A program made the translations under genes and the position numbers. 64,000 nucleotides of DNA from Polaribacter huanghezhanensis (lineage in GTDB: Bacteria; Bacteroidota; Bacteroidia; Flavobacteriales; Flavobacteriaceae): the NCBI RefSeq assembly GCF_030444335.1, contig NZ_CP128595.1, positions 1,736,001-1,800,000 of the forward strand, written 5' to 3'. Within the stretch, counting starts at the first letter, position 1; the number at the start of each line of letters is the position of its first letter. The notes beneath the pieces were generated by a model, which saw only the letters and a program-made list of their open reading frames with translations, ran no database searches and had not been told where the DNA came from. Positions 17,315 through 23,299 of the stretch are shown in pieces.

Positions 17315-18130
17315 TTAGTTAACTTTTATTGGGTTTGCATAAATAGTCATTTTATTTGTTCTGCTAAAACCAATTAAGCAAATTCCAAATTCTTTTGCAT
17401 AATCTATTGCCAAGCTAGAACAGGCAGAAACCGCAACGATAATCCCGATTTTTGCAAAAAAAGCTTTTGAAACAATTTCGTAAGAAACTCTACCACTCAC
17501 TAACATGCAATATGCGTAAGGTAATTTGTTGGTTTGAATTAGTTCCCCCACAACTTTATCAACCGCATTATGACGGCCAATATCTTCTTTTAAAGAAAGG
17601 ATTTCGTAGTTTTTATTAAAAATTGCCGCAGCATGACTTCCGCCAGTTTCTTTAAACGTATTTTGTAAAGAAGTCATTTTTTTTGACATTTCCTTAATTT
17701 CATCCGAAGAAAATAATTGGTTGCTTTTTAAAGCCTTTCCTTTTAATTCGATGTCATCCAATTCTTGCTTTCCGCAGATTCCACAAGACGAAACCGACAA
17801 TAAGGTGCGTTTATTTAAGTAGCCTTTCCCTAATTTTTCTTTTGGAATATTGGTGTTTATAATCGAAAACCCGTTGCTTTCTTCTTTGATAATTTCAAAA
17901 ATTAAATTATCTTTTCCTTTGTAAATATCTTCTGCGTACAACAAACCTCTTATCAACTCAAAATCATTACCAGGAGTTCTCATCACCACCGTATAAGATT
18001 CTTTATTTATGTTGATTTGCAAAGCAGCTTCTACAACGATTCCGTCAGAAACTTTAGTACGTTTTTCGTTTGAAACTAGAATTCCATCGTACTTGAAAAA
18101 GGATTTATTTTTTAAATTAAATTCGCTCAA
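17315..18130 (-). CDS. fdhD: Formate dehydrogenase accessory sulfurtransferase FdhD
   Basis: The 271-aa protein is FdhD, which passes sulfur from a cysteine desulfurase to the molybdenum cofactor so that formate dehydrogenase becomes active. The CxxC sulfur-transfer motif is Cys116-Cys119 in SSCGICGKQ; the GGSHAAAIF and EDIGRHNAVDKVVG motifs follow. It overlaps the 3' end of the formate dehydrogenase alpha gene by 14 bp, which indicates one transcript and coupled translation. Confidence 0.96.
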   Translation of the reverse strand: MSEFNLKNKSFFKYDGILVSNEKRTKVSDGIVVEAALQININKESYTVVMRTPGNDFELIRGLLYAEDIYKGKDNLIFEIIKEESNGFSIINTNIPKEKLGKGYLNKRTLLSVSSCGICGKQELDDIELKGKALKSNQLFSSDEIKEMSKKMTSLQNTFKETGGSHAAAIFNKNYEILSLKEDIGRHNAVDKVVGELIQTNKLPYAYCMLVSGRVSYEIVSKAFFAKIGIIVAVSACSSLAIDYAKEFGICLIGFSRTNKMTIYANPIKVN

Positions 18131-20831
18131 AATCTACTGCTACAACTTTATATTCTGGTGTCATGGTTTCTTTATCGCCAACACTTCCTGTAATAATATT
18201 GATAAATACTTCTGGTTGATGAAAAGTTGTTCTTAACACACCTCGTTTTACATTTTTAGAATATTTAATCGGAATTTCTACACTTCCTCTATCAGAAAAT
18301 ATACGAACCGTTTCGTTGTCTTCAATTCCTTTTCTAATCGCATCTTTTGGATGCACTTCTAACACGTCTTTTGCTAATATTTTTTGATTATCGGTTCTAC
18401 GTGTCATCGTCCCAGAATTGTAATGTTCCAATTCTCTTCCTGTTGTTAAGATAAAAGGGAATTTTTTTCCGTGTGATACAATTTCTGGTGATTCTTCAAA
18501 ATCAAAATGATGGAATGTTCCGATTCCTTTTTTAAAGGCTCCATCAATATGCAACATTTTTGTGTCGGTTCCATCTTCTTTAATTGGCCATTGCAAACCA
18601 TTTTCTCCCAAACGTTCCCAAGATAAACCTTTCATAAACGGAATTACATCTGCAATTTCTTCAATTACTTTTGCGGCATCATAGGTTAAGCCTGTTGGTT
18701 GATTGTATCCCAAACGACTCATCATATCAATAATAATTTGTCCGTCTGGTTTTGTGTTTCCAATTGGGTCAATTACTTTATTGACACGTTGTACTCGTCT
18801 TTCTCCGTTTGTAAATGTTCCGTTTTTTTCAAAATAAGAAGAAGCAGGTAAAATAACATCCGCCATTTCTGTAGTAGCTGTCATAAATAATTCTTGAACT
18901 ACAATCAAATCTACATTTTCAAATGCTTTGATACTGTGATTGGTGTTTGGGTCCGTCATAATGGTATCTTCTCCCATAATGTACAAAGCTTTAATTTTTC
19001 CATCAATTGCTGCATCTAGCATTTCTGGAATCTTTAAACCATTGGTAATTGGCATTTTTTCAATTCCATATTTATCTGCATAATATTGTTGAATGTCTAA
19101 TTTAGTAACATCCAAATAACCAGCCCCTTGATGTGGTTGAACGCCCATATCTGCAGCTCCTTGTACATTATTTTGTCCACGAAGCGGATTTAGTCCAACG
19201 CCGCTTTTACCAATATTACCTGTCATCATTGCTAAGTTAGAAAGCAGCATTACCGTTTTGCTTCCTTGAAAATGCTCAGTCACTCCCAATCCATGAAATT
19301 CCATAGCTCTTTCTGCTTTTGCATATGCGTGAGCAGCGCTACGAACCAACTCTTTATCAACTCCGGTAAGCGTCGAAAGTTCGTCCATATTTAAGCTCTC
19401 TACATGAGATTTGAACTCCTCGTACTTTTCTGTGTGTAATTCTATAAAATTGGAATCAACCAAATTGTCTTTTACAATATAATGTGCCAACATGTTTAAA
19501 ATTGCCACATTAGTTCCAGGTCTAATTTGTAAATGATAATCTGCCAATTCGGCTAATTTTGTTCTGATAGGATCCACCACAATTGAAGTAACTCCTTTCA
19601 TAAACGCTTGTTTGATTTTTGCACCAGTAACTGGATGTCCTTTTATCGGATTTGCACCAAACATAAAAATGGCGTCGGCTTGTTTTAAATCTTCAACAGA
19701 ATTTGTTGCAGCTCCAGTTCCGAATGATTGTTGCATTCCCCAAGCAGTAGGAGCGTGGCAAACACGTGCACAACCATCAATATTATTGGTTCCAACAGCA
19801 ACACGAATCATTTTTTGCATCAAATAATTCTCTTCATTGGTTGCTCTTGATGATGAAATTCCGCCAATTGAATCTGCTCCGTATTTATTCTTGATGTCAA
19901 TTAATCTAGTTGTAATATAATCATAGGCTTCGTCCCAAGTTACTTCTTCAAACTTTCCATTTTTCTTAATCATTGGTTCGCGCAAACGTTCTGGATGATT
20001 GTAAAACTCAAATGCAAAACGTCCTTTTAAACAAGTATGTCCTTCGTTTACTTCGGCAGTTTCTGGAGCTTGAATTCCTTTGATTTCTCCATCAATTACC
20101 GAAACTTCTAACTGACAACCAACGCCACAATACGTACACGTTGTTCTAACAGTTTTATCCGCAATTAAGGTTTTTGTTTCGTATTTATCTGTCAATGCTT
20201 CTGTTGGACAGGTTTGTACACAAGCTCCACAAGAAACACAAGCCGATTCATCAAAAGACGTGTCAAATCCTTTGATAATATTGGTTGCAAAACCACGACC
20301 AGACATTCCTAAAATCATTTCTCCTTGAATTTCTTCACAGGCTCTTACGCAACGAAAACAGTTGATGCATTGCGATAAATCTGATTTGATATACGGATGC
20401 GCTCTGTCTTCTTCAATATTTAAATGAGTTGATCCTTCGGGGTAACGAACATTCGGAATTCCGATTTGAGCAATGGTTTCTTGAAAAGGTGTTGCTTTTT
20501 TGTTTTCTGGCGGAAAGACTTTATCAGAGGGATAATCAGTTAAGACCAATTCCACAATATTTTTACGAAGACGCTTCATTTTATCGGTATTGTGATAAAT
20601 GTATACACCTTCTCCGATTGGCGTATGACAAGAAGCCATCGTTTTTGTGATGCCATCTTTTTCTCTTGCAACTTCGACAGAACAAACTCTACAAGAACCA
20701 AAATTCTCTAAACGATCATCTTGACACATGGTTGGAATTGCGTCTTTATTGCTTTCAATTCTTCTTACAAACTCTAAAATAGTTTCTCCAGAATAGAATT
20801 CGTGTGCTATGTTGTTTATAAATGCTTTCAT
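18117..20831 (-). CDS. Formate dehydrogenase alpha subunit (molybdopterin, Cys type)
   Basis: The 904-aa protein resembles cytoplasmic NAD-dependent formate dehydrogenases. Domains in order: N-terminal [2Fe-2S] ferredoxin (Cys36, 47, 50, 68), a double [4Fe-4S] domain (Cys155/158/161/165 and 198/201/204/208), a [4Fe-4S] site at the start of the molybdopterin domain (Cys232/235/239/267), and the Mo-bis-MGD region to the end. The metal-ligand residue is Cys358 followed by His359 (CARVCHAPT), so it is not a selenoprotein. It should oxidise formate to CO2 and pass electrons to the NuoEF-like subunit encoded upstream. No Tat signal is present. Confidence 0.95.
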   Translation of the reverse strand: MKAFINNIAHEFYSGETILEFVRRIESNKDAIPTMCQDDRLENFGSCRVCSVEVAREKDGITKTMASCHTPIGEGVYIYHNTDKMKRLRKNIVELVLTDYPSDKVFPPENKKATPFQETIAQIGIPNVRYPEGSTHLNIEEDRAHPYIKSDLSQCINCFRCVRACEEIQGEMILGMSGRGFATNIIKGFDTSFDESACVSCGACVQTCPTEALTDKYETKTLIADKTVRTTCTYCGVGCQLEVSVIDGEIKGIQAPETAEVNEGHTCLKGRFAFEFYNHPERLREPMIKKNGKFEEVTWDEAYDYITTRLIDIKNKYGADSIGGISSSRATNEENYLMQKMIRVAVGTNNIDGCARVCHAPTAWGMQQSFGTGAATNSVEDLKQADAIFMFGANPIKGHPVTGAKIKQAFMKGVTSIVVDPIRTKLAELADYHLQIRPGTNVAILNMLAHYIVKDNLVDSNFIELHTEKYEEFKSHVESLNMDELSTLTGVDKELVRSAAHAYAKAERAMEFHGLGVTEHFQGSKTVMLLSNLAMMTGNIGKSGVGLNPLRGQNNVQGAADMGVQPHQGAGYLDVTKLDIQQYYADKYGIEKMPITNGLKIPEMLDAAIDGKIKALYIMGEDTIMTDPNTNHSIKAFENVDLIVVQELFMTATTEMADVILPASSYFEKNGTFTNGERRVQRVNKVIDPIGNTKPDGQIIIDMMSRLGYNQPTGLTYDAAKVIEEIADVIPFMKGLSWERLGENGLQWPIKEDGTDTKMLHIDGAFKKGIGTFHHFDFEESPEIVSHGKKFPFILTTGRELEHYNSGTMTRRTDNQKILAKDVLEVHPKDAIRKGIEDNETVRIFSDRGSVEIPIKYSKNVKRGVLRTTFHQPEVFINIITGSVGDKETMTPEYKVVAVDFERI

Positions 20832-20843
20832 ACTTTTTTCTTT

Positions 20844-20982
20844 TCACTAAGACTCATAAAGATTCTCAGAGTTACACAAAGGATTTTTTACATTTTTTAG
20901 TTTCTTTTTTTTCTTCTTCTTCTTCTTCTTCTTCTTCTTCTTCTTTGTGAATCTTCGCGATTCTTTGAGCAACTTTGTGAAA
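20844..20982. repeat. Palindromic repeat unit R1
   Basis: A forward arm CACTAAGACTCATAAAGATT... (20846-20881) and an inverted, diverged arm CTTTGTGAATCTTCGCGATT... (20943-20982) form a long imperfect hairpin in the gap between the alpha-subunit gene and the GxxExxY gene. The arms are built from CACAAAG-like heptads. A further half arm (TTACACTAAGTTCTTACAAAG) is at 20994-21014, next to the GxxExxY stop. Confidence 0.7.
20911..20943. repeat. (TTC)11 microsatellite
   Basis: Eleven perfect TTC units lie in the loop of palindromic unit R1. They are outside any gene, so a change in unit number would not shift a reading frame but could change spacing in the alpha-subunit leader (start codon at 20831). 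Confidence 0.9.
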
Positions 20983-21016
20983 TGATTTATTTTTACACTA
21001 AGTTCTTACAAAGTTT

Positions 21017-21388
21017 TTATAATATAAATCTTTTGATACCTTCTTTTAATAATTTAACATTAAAATTCAATAATAATCCCAATTTATAGTTTCCTAATTT
21101 CATGTAAGTTAATATTTGTGCTGTGTGAACATCTGTTAAAAACTCTACTGTTTTAAGTTCTATAACTACTTTATTTTCAATTAGCAAATCTATCCTATAC
21201 CCATGATCTAATTTTATTTCTTTGTAAACAATTGGCAAAGCTTTTTCTTTTTCAACTGTTAATCCTTCATTTATCAATTCATAATATAAACATTCTTGAT
21301 ATGCTGATTCTAATAAGCCTGGACCAAGTGTTCTGTGAACTTCAATTGCTTTTCCAAGTATTATTTTTGATATTTCATTTTCTGACAT
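21017..21388 (-). CDS. GxxExxY protein, PD-(D/E)XK nuclease-like fold
   Basis: The 123-aa protein has the defining GLLESAY motif (Gly24, Glu27, Tyr30). It also carries the elements of a PD-(D/E)XK nuclease core: Asp67, then Glu77-x-Lys79 in YRIDLLIENKVVIELKT, then Gln91-x3-Tyr95 in AQILTYM, a QxxxY arrangement like that of RecB-type nucleases. The family is widespread in Bacteroidota and its role is unproven. The gene lies between the two formate dehydrogenase subunit genes, with palindromic repeat units on both sides, so it looks like part of an inserted element rather than of the operon. Confidence 0.88.
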   Translation of the reverse strand: MSENEISKIILGKAIEVHRTLGPGLLESAYQECLYYELINEGLTVEKEKALPIVYKEIKLDHGYRIDLLIENKVVIELKTVEFLTDVHTAQILTYMKLGNYKLGLLLNFNVKLLKEGIKRFIL

Positions 21389-21420
21389 TTTTTCTTTTTC
21401 ATTTAGTAATTTTTTAATCT

Positions 21421-21521
21421 TACACTAAGATTCACAAAGACTCTCAGAGTTACACAAAGATTTTTTATATTTCTTTTTCTTTGAGAACCTTCATGGTTTT
21501 CTTAGTGGAACTTAGTGAAAT
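21421..21521. repeat. Palindromic repeat unit R2
   Basis: The forward arm TACACTAAGATTCACAAAGA... (21421-21460) and the inverted arm CTTTGAGAACCTTCATGGTT... (21479-21521) are related to R1 and R3. The forward arms of R1, R2 and R3 share the core TCTCAGAGTTACA. The unit lies just upstream of the GxxExxY start. Confidence 0.75.
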
Positions 21522-21530
21522 AATTATATT

Positions 21531-21653
21531 CTTACACAAAGTTTCACAAAGACTCTCAGAGTTACAAAGAATTTATTATATTTTTATTCTTTTATTCTTT
21601 CATTCTTTTCTTCTTTGTGAGTCTTCGTGTTTCTTTGTGAAACCTTGTGAAAT
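21531..21653. repeat. Palindromic repeat unit R3
   Basis: The forward arm CTTACACAAAGTTTCACAAA... (21531-21569) and the inverted arm CTTTGTGAGTCTTCGTGTTT... (21613-21653) form an imperfect hairpin. It ends only 11 bp from the stop codon of the formate dehydrogenase beta gene and probably also affects that gene's 3' end. Confidence 0.75.
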
Positions 21654-21664
21654 ATTTTTATGTA

Positions 21665-23299
21665 TTAAGAAAAATATCCTTTTAACTCCTCTTGAAAATA
21701 CTGCAATGCGTTTTTAACTGGTAACGGAATTCCACCTCCCAAAGCACATAAAGAACCAATTTCTAGGGTTTCTAATAAGTCATCAAACAATTCACGATTG
21801 ATTTTATAATCAGAAGTTTGTGCTTTTTGCAACATTTCCATTCCTCTATGTGAACCAATTCTACATGGATAACATTTTCCACAAGATTCATCCGCAGTAA
21901 ATTCCATTAAATGTTCTAAAAACTGAATCATTGGAAAATCAACAGGAATCGAAACAAAACTTGCGTGTCCTAATAAAAACCCATTGGTATTTAACGATTC
22001 AAAATCTAAGGTCAACTCTTTAATTTTATGCATGGGTACAATTCCACCAAGCGGACCACCAATTTGCAATCCTTTTATTTCCGATTTAAATCCGCCACCA
22101 AACTCATCAAAAATAGTTTGTAAAGGAGTTCCCATTTCTATTTCATACATTCCTGGTGTATTGAAAAAACTATCCAACGAAACTAATTTTGTCCCTGTAG
22201 ATTGTCCTTTGCCTAAAGCAGCATACGCTTCTCCGCCGTTTTCTAAAATCCAATGAATATTTGCAAAAGTTTCTACATTACTTAAAACGGTTGGCTTTCC
22301 GTACAATCCATATTGTGCTGGATAAGGTGGGCGAACACGAACTTCTGGTCGTAAACCTTCAATTGAACTTAAAAGTGCCGTTTCTTCTCCACAAACATAA
22401 GAACCTTGTCCGCGAATGATTTTAAATCTAAAATCACCAATTAAATTTTTGTCTTTAATTTCCTGAATTGCTTCATCAACAGTTCTAATAGAATCTGGAT
22501 ATTCTCCACGAATGTACAAAACGCCTGTATTTGCACCAACTGTTAAACCAGCCATGTACATTCCGAACAACACTTTGTGCGGTTGATGTTCCATTAAGTA
22601 CATATCAGAATACGCTCCAGGATCGCCTTCATCCGCATTACAAACAATGTATTTTTGTGTGTCACCCTGAGCGGAGCCGATGGGTTCTTTTATAACGGCA
22701 TCTAACTTGAACCAAAACGGAAAACCAGCTCCACCACGACCTCTTAAATTCGAGGTTTTTAATTGCTGAATTGTATTTTGTGGATTATTATGTTTTTCTG
22801 CCAATTGATAAAAAGCAGCAACATCACCCATTTTTGAAGTTAAAATTGGAGTTGTATTGGAAGCTACTTTATAACTGTTTTCTTGATATTCTTTTTTACT
22901 GATGATCTCTGCTACTTCTTCAGACGATGAAGCATTATATGTTTTACCATCGTACATAAATGCATTATTTGTGTGGCAACGACCCACACAAGCCGCATGA
23001 CCGATTTCTTCTGAATTAAAGTGTGTTTCTAAGTTTTTGTTCAGATTGTTCTGAGAATTCGCAACCATACATGCAGTTCCAGAGCACACATGTACTTTTT
23101 TGTTTTTATTGGCTTCTCTGGTAAAATCGTAAAAAGTACTTGTTCCTAAAACGACAGAATCATCAATCATAAAACGCTTTGCAAGCTCTTGCAATTCTTC
23201 TTTAGAGTTTGTTTTTTGTGAAGAGATTGAGATGTTTTCAAAAAGATTGTCATCCAATTCTTTTCTAGATGATAATGTTCTAATATTTTTATTTGCCAT
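21665..23299 (-). CDS. Formate dehydrogenase beta subunit, NuoE-NuoF-like fusion
   Basis: The 544-aa protein joins a thioredoxin-like NuoE-type [2Fe-2S] domain (Cys72, Cys77, Cys104, Cys108) to a NuoF-type diaphorase (NADH/FMN motif LRGRGGAGFPFWFK, about 185-198, and C-terminal [4Fe-4S] motif ESCGKCYPCRIG). It should pass electrons from the alpha subunit to NAD+. Residues about 204-215 (KEPIGSAQGDTQ) are an extra segment encoded by a dispersed repeat, just before the conserved NADEGDPGAYSD. The alpha gene is 833 bp downstream, beyond the GxxExxY element, wider than expected for partners. Confidence 0.93.
   Translation of the reverse strand: MANKNIRTLSSRKELDDNLFENISISSQKTNSKEELQELAKRFMIDDSVVLGTSTFYDFTREANKNKKVHVCSGTACMVANSQNNLNKNLETHFNSEEIGHAACVGRCHTNNAFMYDGKTYNASSSEEVAEIISKKEYQENSYKVASNTTPILTSKMGDVAAFYQLAEKHNNPQNTIQQLKTSNLRGRGGAGFPFWFKLDAVIKEPIGSAQGDTQKYIVCNADEGDPGAYSDMYLMEHQPHKVLFGMYMAGLTVGANTGVLYIRGEYPDSIRTVDEAIQEIKDKNLIGDFRFKIIRGQGSYVCGEETALLSSIEGLRPEVRVRPPYPAQYGLYGKPTVLSNVETFANIHWILENGGEAYAALGKGQSTGTKLVSLDSFFNTPGMYEIEMGTPLQTIFDEFGGGFKSEIKGLQIGGPLGGIVPMHKIKELTLDFESLNTNGFLLGHASFVSIPVDFPMIQFLEHLMEFTADESCGKCYPCRIGSHRGMEMLQKAQTSDYKINRELFDDLLETLEIGSLCALGGGIPLPVKNALQYFQEELKGYFS
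22660..22686. repeat. Dispersed repeat inserted in-frame in the beta-subunit gene
   Basis: TGTCACCCTGAGCGGAGCCG plus the following ATGGGTT is a copy of the dispersed CTGAGCGNAGTCGA repeat family that is otherwise intergenic here (for example 41970-42028 and 53382-53433). On the coding strand it reads as EPIGSAQGDT with the frame kept. Confidence 0.75.

Follow-up and report, generated by a model that had tools for sequence, protein, structure and literature searches.

The window, that is the whole stretch of 64,000 nucleotides from the genome of Polaribacter huanghezhanensis that was analysed, contains two codirectional genes for formate dehydrogenase subunits which are separated by an insert holding a small gene of the GxxExxY family among palindromic repeat units (Table 1). 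This gene is the single open reading frame of at least 90 amino acids in the insert, where it matches PF13366 alone and where no transposase gene was found, while the insert is flanked by protein genes and no rRNA match was obtained at E ≤ 5 between positions 20400 and 22200.

Table 1. Features of the insert and its neighbouring genes, with positions in the window
Feature	Position	Strand	Description
Formate dehydrogenase molybdopterin subunit	18117-20831	-	Downstream neighbour, codirectional
Whole insert between formate dehydrogenase subunit genes	20832-21664		833 nt
Unit R1	20845-20979		Downstream of the GxxExxY gene; two four-word arms round a CTT-run loop
R1, left arm			CACTAAG 20845, CATAAAG 20855, CTCAGAG 20865, CACAAAG 20875
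R1, right arm			CTTTGTG 20943, CTTCGCG 20953, CTTTGAG 20963, CTTTGTG 20973
Half-arm beside the GxxExxY stop codon	20996-21013		CACTAAG and TACAAAG; by eye
GxxExxY protein gene	21017-21388	-	123 aa; assigned to the PD-(D/E)XK superfamily (TIGR04256, PF13366)
Unit R2	21423-21517		Upstream of the GxxExxY gene
R2, arms			CACTAAG, CACAAAG, CTCAGAG, CACAAAG / loop / CTTTGAG, CTTCATG, CTTAGTG, CTTAGTG
Unit R3	21535-21649		Upstream of R2
R3, arms			CACAAAG, CACAAAG, CTCAGAG, TACAAAG / loop / CTTTGTG, CTTCGTG, CTTTGTG, CCTTGTG
Formate dehydrogenase beta-type subunit	21665-23299	-	Nuo51 and 2Fe-2S domains; upstream neighbour, codirectional

In profile searches, the product of the small gene scores 150.2 bits with TIGR04256 (cut-off 35), which places it in the GxxExxY family, and 146.7 bits with PF13366 (PDDEXK_3; cut-off 22); these are the sole matches at E ≤ 0.001, with no HUH/Y1 tyrosine transposase among them. 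The PD-(D/E)XK elements Asp67, Glu77 and Lys79 and the motif Gln91-x3-Tyr95, which a preliminary description of this DNA had pointed out, were read correctly, as D67, E77, K79, Q91 and Y95 are kept in 130, 130, 131, 129 and 131, respectively, of 131 aligned relatives, the D/E/K set being incomplete in L143 and L363. Conservation of the GxxExxY motif itself is partly by construction, because 35 of the aligned proteins, from outside the bacterial family, were chosen by the pattern of this motif; the catalytic residues fall outside it. The fold is predicted with a pLDDT of 95.8 and a pTM of 0.88, and its nearest solved fold as retrieved by Foldseek is SSO0001 (PDB 4ic1, E 1.1e-3), with lambda exonuclease next. 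VIA placed SSO0001 first as well (Z 9.9, 100 aligned residues, 4.4 Å), followed by restriction nucleases, and gave Z 6-7 for Hjc resolvases, whereby values below 8 may reflect just a common arrangement; a search of the PDB by sequence produced no convincing relative (best E 0.36). SSO0001 is presumably a Cas4, a nuclease with an iron-sulphur cluster, and Q-x3-Y is a mark of the RecB/Cas4 group. By its D...ExK residues and its predicted restriction-nuclease-like core, the window protein is a member of the PD-(D/E)XK superfamily. A second GxxExxY gene of the same genome (L005, G000:C1:2583835-2584134) has CTATGTG-type words on either side, and in the alignment its product is not one of the two proteins that lack D/E/K.

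The three related inverted-repeat units previously noticed are present, two of them on the upstream and the third on the downstream side of the gene, and one extra half-arm accompanies them. Judged by eye, four of the six arms keep a pitch of exactly 10 bp between heptad words, the exceptions being the right arm of R2 (10, 12, 10) and the left arm of R3 (10, 10, 8). The loop of R1 holds about 10 CTT triplets in a run (20913-20942). A genome search for the core of the units, as had been proposed, retrieved TCTCAGAGTTACA three times in the single-contig genome of 2.59 Mb, all occurrences lying within the window module, and the long matches to a 101-base unit query were just R1, R2 and R3. Among 399 open reading frames called mechanically in 20 stretches plus the window, the gene has the highest inverted-word flank signal (z 10.5). 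As local hairpins compared with shuffled sequences, R3 reaches z -4.67 and R2 a weak z of -2.24, with R1 not above the shuffles (z 0.21). The whole module (20838-21660) folded as one RNA gives z -5.32 against just 20 shuffles, in a predicted structure in which the upstream words pair with the downstream words and the gene lies in the loop. Rfam returned just sub-threshold, implausible matches to microRNAs and snoRNAs.

That the formate dehydrogenase subunit genes are normally adjacent and have been split by the insert is borne out by relatives. The beta-type subunit is encoded in 3 of 58 genomes of the genus, the window's included, and in the two congeners, G057 and G011 (L073, L074), the gap between the subunit genes is by eye 4 and 6 nt versus 833 nt in the window. 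Among 29 further loci of the bacterial family, 26 are adjacent (≤65 nt; L203, L204 and L219 were read by eye, the motif of the script having failed), two are uninformative (L199, L202) and one, in G338, carries the same insert, which shows that not all relatives have the split order as their ancestral state. At this same junction, G338 has a GxxExxY gene with CTCTGTG-type words on either side, the product of which is the sister of the window protein in a maximum-likelihood tree (support 99/90), and in G248 the 64-nt gap of an adjacent locus holds leftover words, so that empty, words-only and gene-bearing states of the site exist. The inserts in the window's genome (G000) and G338 may go back to one old insertion later lost elsewhere, or one of the two may have received it with the operon. 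By eye, empty and filled sites are too diverged to tell a target-site duplication.

A GxxExxY match occurs in 24 of the 58 genus genomes (22 above the cut-off), and clades of the gene occupy recurrent sites, namely between hemL and hemE, between genes for methionine aminopeptidase and a methyltransferase-like protein and at ABC transporter genes (names according to the translations), frequently with a word array on either side. When the 110 nt upstream of the gene are confronted with the 110 nt downstream, pairing at z<-4 is observed in 14 of 26 genus loci (parsed out of 28; median -4.06) versus 3 of 319 control open reading frames, which were called mechanically in four genomes of the genus (median 0.05). 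In the bacterial family 41 of 96 loci reach this level, and in 82 of the 96 the locus's own flanks pair better than mismatched flanks do on average, whereby the 69 family pairing loci are not a random sample, as 29 were delivered by the search and 40 taken roughly from the best scores downward, with weaker-scoring matches left out, L033 dropped for a broken frame and L035 and L036 left out as below the cut-off. The 55 loci above z -4 count against a partnership of nuclease and repeat, as do L432 and L433, where both arrays face the same way. In other phyla, pairing at z<-4 was found in 10 of 24 parsed loci (30 tried). At L341 and L348, CACAGAG-x(1-2)-CACAGAG-x2-CACAGAG (with CACTGAG as one word in L341) comes before the gene and CTCTGTG-x2-CTCTGTG-x(1-2)-CTCTGTG-GTGAA after it.

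Inverted flanks of this kind could also function in RNA, in a manner resembling the intervening sequence of 23S rRNA, with arms that pair in the polycistronic transcript, the gene in the loop and an insert that is tolerated or cut out (e.g. by RNase III), while the gene would spread otherwise and the protein act on RNA or on element copying. Such an RNA-level element, which is considered unlikely, gains from the orientation of the GxxExxY gene, as in 82 of 94 loci of the bacterial family it runs in the same direction as its two neighbours, versus 192 of 341 control open reading frames called mechanically in four genus genomes; this bias counts against a DNA-level element, since such an element need not show it. 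The position of the arms, often directly between the stop and start codons of the neighbours, and the RNA fold of the whole window module point in the same direction, as do four-helix (S23/IVS-type) genes, 22 of 23 of which likewise share the orientation of their neighbours and which frequently lie between repeated words. A precedent, in the accessible part of its description, is the Coxiella intervening sequence, an insert which holds an open reading frame and is bounded by terminal inverted repeats (PMC4990558). Gene-less arrays are nevertheless common and their orientation is near baseline, with codirectional neighbours at 15 of 27 arrays in the family and 51 of 83 in mixed phyla where both neighbours were called; furthermore, the arms show no clear complementarity in their spacer letters, and the arrays of L432 and L433 are direct instead of inverted.

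Genes for four-helix bundle proteins (TIGR02436), found in 48 of the 58 genus genomes (L042-L071, L075-L094), are a second small-gene family with similar flank architecture, often situated between locus-specific repeated words inverted across the gene; words are strongly repeated at 8 of 23 of these genes, and duplex z<-4 is reached at 6 of 50. A first flank statistic on 7-mer pairs, later set aside, separated these genes partly (8 of 23 versus 14 of 374 other open reading frames at z>5 by either measure).

The general repeat signal is a heptad array of the type CTYYGYG/CRCRRAG, which was searched for as three CTYTGYG heptads in the bacterial family and three CTYYGYG heptads in Planctomycetota (the phylum of G397), the gaps of 1-3 nt being set by these search patterns. 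Arrays were detected in 33 of 299 family genomes, with one match for the reversed pattern, and a GxxExxY gene (E ≤ 1e-15) is present in 30 of the 33 versus 80 of the 299 overall (p 1.7e-16, kinship ignored). The remaining three array-bearing genomes are without a TIGR04256 match, G139 and G305 having a carrier congener in the sample, and 50 of the 80 carriers, the window's genome included, are without an array by the pattern used. The sole kinship-controlled test, which is small, compared 27 genera represented by one carrier and one non-carrier; arrays are more numerous in the carrier in 6 of them, equal in number in 21 (19 at zero) and in no genus more numerous in the non-carrier (one-sided p 0.016). 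The gene is found in 95 of 199 Planctomycetota genomes, specifically in 72 of 84 array-bearing genomes versus 23 of 115 others (p 2.9e-21, kinship ignored), array-bearing being defined by at least 3 matches and by more than three times as many matches as the reversed control gives; array thresholds, like the word classes used below, were set after inspection of the data. With thresholds of 1, 5 and 10, carriers make up 77 of 105, 67 of 78 and 61 of 68 array-bearing genomes (p 6e-15, 5e-19 and 8e-19), and array number correlates with gene copies (Spearman 0.66). In total, 4282 array matches (95 in the reversed control) fall to the 95 carriers and 336 (33 in the reversed control) to the 104 non-carriers, with 601 in the richest single genome (reversed control 14), while 12 of the 84 array-bearing genomes are without a TIGR04256 match. 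Together with the flank pairing, co-occurrence in these two samples makes an association of gene and arrays across genomes well supported, as the preliminary description had anticipated, and the link that it drew between GxxExxY genes and CACAAAG repeats in Bacteroidota proved right and applies to other phyla too.

A scan of public genomes recovered at least 118 array stretches, among Planctomycetes, Acidobacteria, Chloroflexi, Cyanobacteria (Scytonema), Verrucomicrobia, Bacteroidota, Proteobacteria and ANME archaea. At the 80 array loci drawn from these stretches and examined, the gene was present in only 2, most arrays being far from it; in the genomes concerned it is present somewhere in 37 of 50 (of 75 genomes), including ANME-2, and 13 of 50 are without a TIGR04256 match, a proportion without matched background that is not counted as a test. 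Arrays are not all intergenic, as 1 of 33 in the family, 29 of 127 in mixed phyla and 5 of 10 in Planctomycetota fall inside open reading frames of at least 110 aa, which may include spurious frames or chance matches. Heptad-array regions at L177, L186, L187 and L190 also have runs of other words, e.g. CAGTCTTCAGTAGG, TTTGGAATTTGG and CTCACTGA.

The distance of most examined arrays from the gene and the existence of array-bearing genomes without it would also be expected if the arrays were a dispersed repeat in their own right, mobilised by some other enzyme, e.g. an HUH transposase of the RAYT/TIRYT type, and the GxxExxY gene were a passenger or landed preferentially in arrays. Tyrosine transposases flanked by terminal inverted repeats (TIRs), with families of TIR repeats, are indeed known, Acidobacteria included, from the accessible portions of PMC3733652. 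This explanation, to which little probability is assigned, has to contend with the correlation of array number with gene copies, with flank pairing that reaches subfamilies with other words and with word types that track the clade of the GxxExxY protein, including at a site that is common to two clades. Words were grouped into classes A (CTYBGYG; 49 loci), B (ATYYGYG; 34 loci) and C (CTATGTS; 5 loci), with 8 loci unassigned. Placed as labels on the maximum-likelihood protein tree, they require 8 changes versus a shuffled mean of 38.8, with 0 of 200 shuffles as low, whereby the tree is built on 129 columns with unsettled bootstrap and flagged long branches, and near-copies cluster with any label. 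A single site with 33 loci, the gap between the methionine aminopeptidase-like and methyltransferase-like genes (context (0,1), e.g. L022, L027; names from the translations), is occupied by words of class A at 18 loci and of class B at the other 15, and the proteins at this site form two clades, of GPGLL and GKGF type. As one site hosts both classes, word type goes with the protein, not with the site.

With respect to the gene-less copies, opposite arms not more than 120 nt apart form 30 pairs in gene-like order (loops of 13-100 nt) and 7 inside-out pairs (12-35 nt). Several of the gene-less hairpins end in CACC...GGTG, ends which also bound gene-bearing loci such as L341 and L347, and the three nucleotides after the arm are GTT in 57 and GTG in 39 of 247 arms. 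Since the strict arm pattern round family genes gave just 4 pairs, solo hairpins were used for a mirror test of 37 pairs in gene-like order, collected with a slightly looser pattern. Agreement within versus between loci was 0.83 versus 0.67 for the variable heptad letters, 0.89 versus 0.48 for spacer length and 0.71 versus 0.45 for the four outer bases, whereas the spacer letters do not clearly mirror each other (0.44 versus 0.35, z 1.4). This pattern favours heptads in fixed register, of a kind suited to reading by a protein, over an unbroken stem. In the Planctomycetota genome G511, a copy family of about 230 bp (L392-L405) has heptad arrays inside longer terminal inverted repeats; among 13 copies compared, 9 share the interior and both ends with unrelated flanks beyond, and L394, L396, L401 and L404 are partial. 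Seven of the nine solo elements fetched from G081 are inside-out with short loops.

A further alternative is that the arrays are host sites (for recombination, termination or self-marking) that are read by the nuclease as a host or defence protein. It can draw on the strong conservation of the catalytic residues and on the nearest folds, SSO0001, then lambda exonuclease and other nucleases, as well as on the rarity of the family on mobile replicons, as a tblastn search with the window protein, which may miss distant members, matched 8 of 72,556 plasmid records and 0 of 50,697 phage records. A host function is however very improbable, given the patchy distribution of the gene (24 of 58 genus genomes, 22 above the cut-off; 80 of 299 in the family), the copy family with shared interior and unrelated flanks, and the position of the gene between sites of its own, within an insert that relatives lack. 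The few plasmid matches, the best of which has among its neighbours thrA and radA, both of a chromosomal kind, and the zero phage matches suggest that the family probably spreads for the most part inside genomes and by inheritance.

Cumulatively, the co-occurring gene and arrays suggest a little-noticed selfish repeat family with its own nuclease. Of the mobile or selfish repeat family originally envisaged, the dispersed gene-less copies are an observation, while mobilisation of the arrays by the nuclease is what we infer. It is on balance probable that nuclease and repeat form a partnership that works like REP/RAYT, with a Cas4/RecB-like PD-(D/E)XK nuclease in the place of the HUH transposase. 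The cognate sites of the GxxExxY protein would be arrays of three to four heptads (CTYYGYG with clade-specific variants), about one helical turn apart, the arms of which the protein may bind in register, possibly when exposed as single strands or hairpins. By nicking or trimming of the arms, array-bounded pieces could be copied or moved to new sites, a piece with the gene being a putative complete element and a piece without it a putative miniature element. R1-R3 in the window would then be local copies of the arms of the gene, with the formate dehydrogenase genes probably a landing site only. A wider proposal, somewhat short of an even chance and thus put forward tentatively, extends this partnership to mobile repeats across phyla, driven by a single small Cas4/RecB-like GxxExxY nuclease that has heptad arrays, spaced at about helical pitch, as its recognition sites. 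Elements with the gene would lie between arms, gene-less copies would number up to hundreds in one genome, and the class would span numerous bacterial phyla as well as at least one archaeon (ANME-2), its words co-evolving with the nuclease; it would be an equivalent of REP/RAYT with an unrelated enzyme at its core.

GxxExxY proteins, which were found in 24 of 58 genus and 95 of 199 sampled Planctomycetota genomes, are covered by curated models but bear a generic name. In the open-licence literature, no description of an association of GxxExxY with repeat arrays was found, and the publications retrieved name GxxExxY, in their accessible portions, just in passing; in one of them, as far as its available text goes, a GxxExxY domain was called by one pipeline where another tool saw cas4 (PMC8934634). 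The link to a specific, countable DNA repeat provides a testable substrate for the family, and the match between words and clades a natural specificity series for biochemistry. If the proposal is true, a class of dispersed arrays is explained, and an enzyme that has no kinship with RAYTs is able to maintain REP-like repeat populations.

The closest parallel among known systems is provided by REP sequences and REPINs with their RAYTs (REPtrons), for which the comparison draws on the accessible portions of PMC3116915 and PMC3733652. There too, repeats flank an enzyme gene, gene-less inverted doublets are dispersed between genes, pairing is repeat-specific and several phyla are involved. RAYTs, however, belong to the tyrosine transposases, carry an HUH domain and go with palindromes tagged by GTAG (PMC3733652). 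An enzyme gene flanked by repeats together with dispersed gene-less copies was found for the GxxExxY family at large, while in the window's own genome the R1-R3 units are confined to this locus and the array pattern gives no match. The repeats in this work are heptad arrays and go with a PD-(D/E)XK protein; because this protein is without an HUH-family match, the system is REP/RAYT-like but not a member. TIRtrons, in the part of PMC3733652 that is available, resemble it by a transposase gene (TIRYT) between TIRs and by moderately abundant TIR-only repeat families, but have an HUH transposase, whereas protein superfamily and repeat build are different here. The 23S rRNA intervening sequence with its S23/four-helix protein shares a small open reading frame in an insert with terminal inverted repeats forming a stem, as the accessible text of PMC4990558 describes, and an open reading frame in the loop of a terminal stem was found in the window by predicted fold (20 shuffles); in contrast, the insert described here lies outside rRNA, encodes an unrelated nuclease-fold protein and has counterparts in gene-less arrays dispersed in genomes. 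With Cas4/RecB nucleases such as SSO0001 and with lambda exonuclease, finally, the GxxExxY protein has the PD-(D/E)XK fold and the Q-x3-Y motif in common, but it differs from them in being a protein of about 123 aa that is found with repeat arrays.
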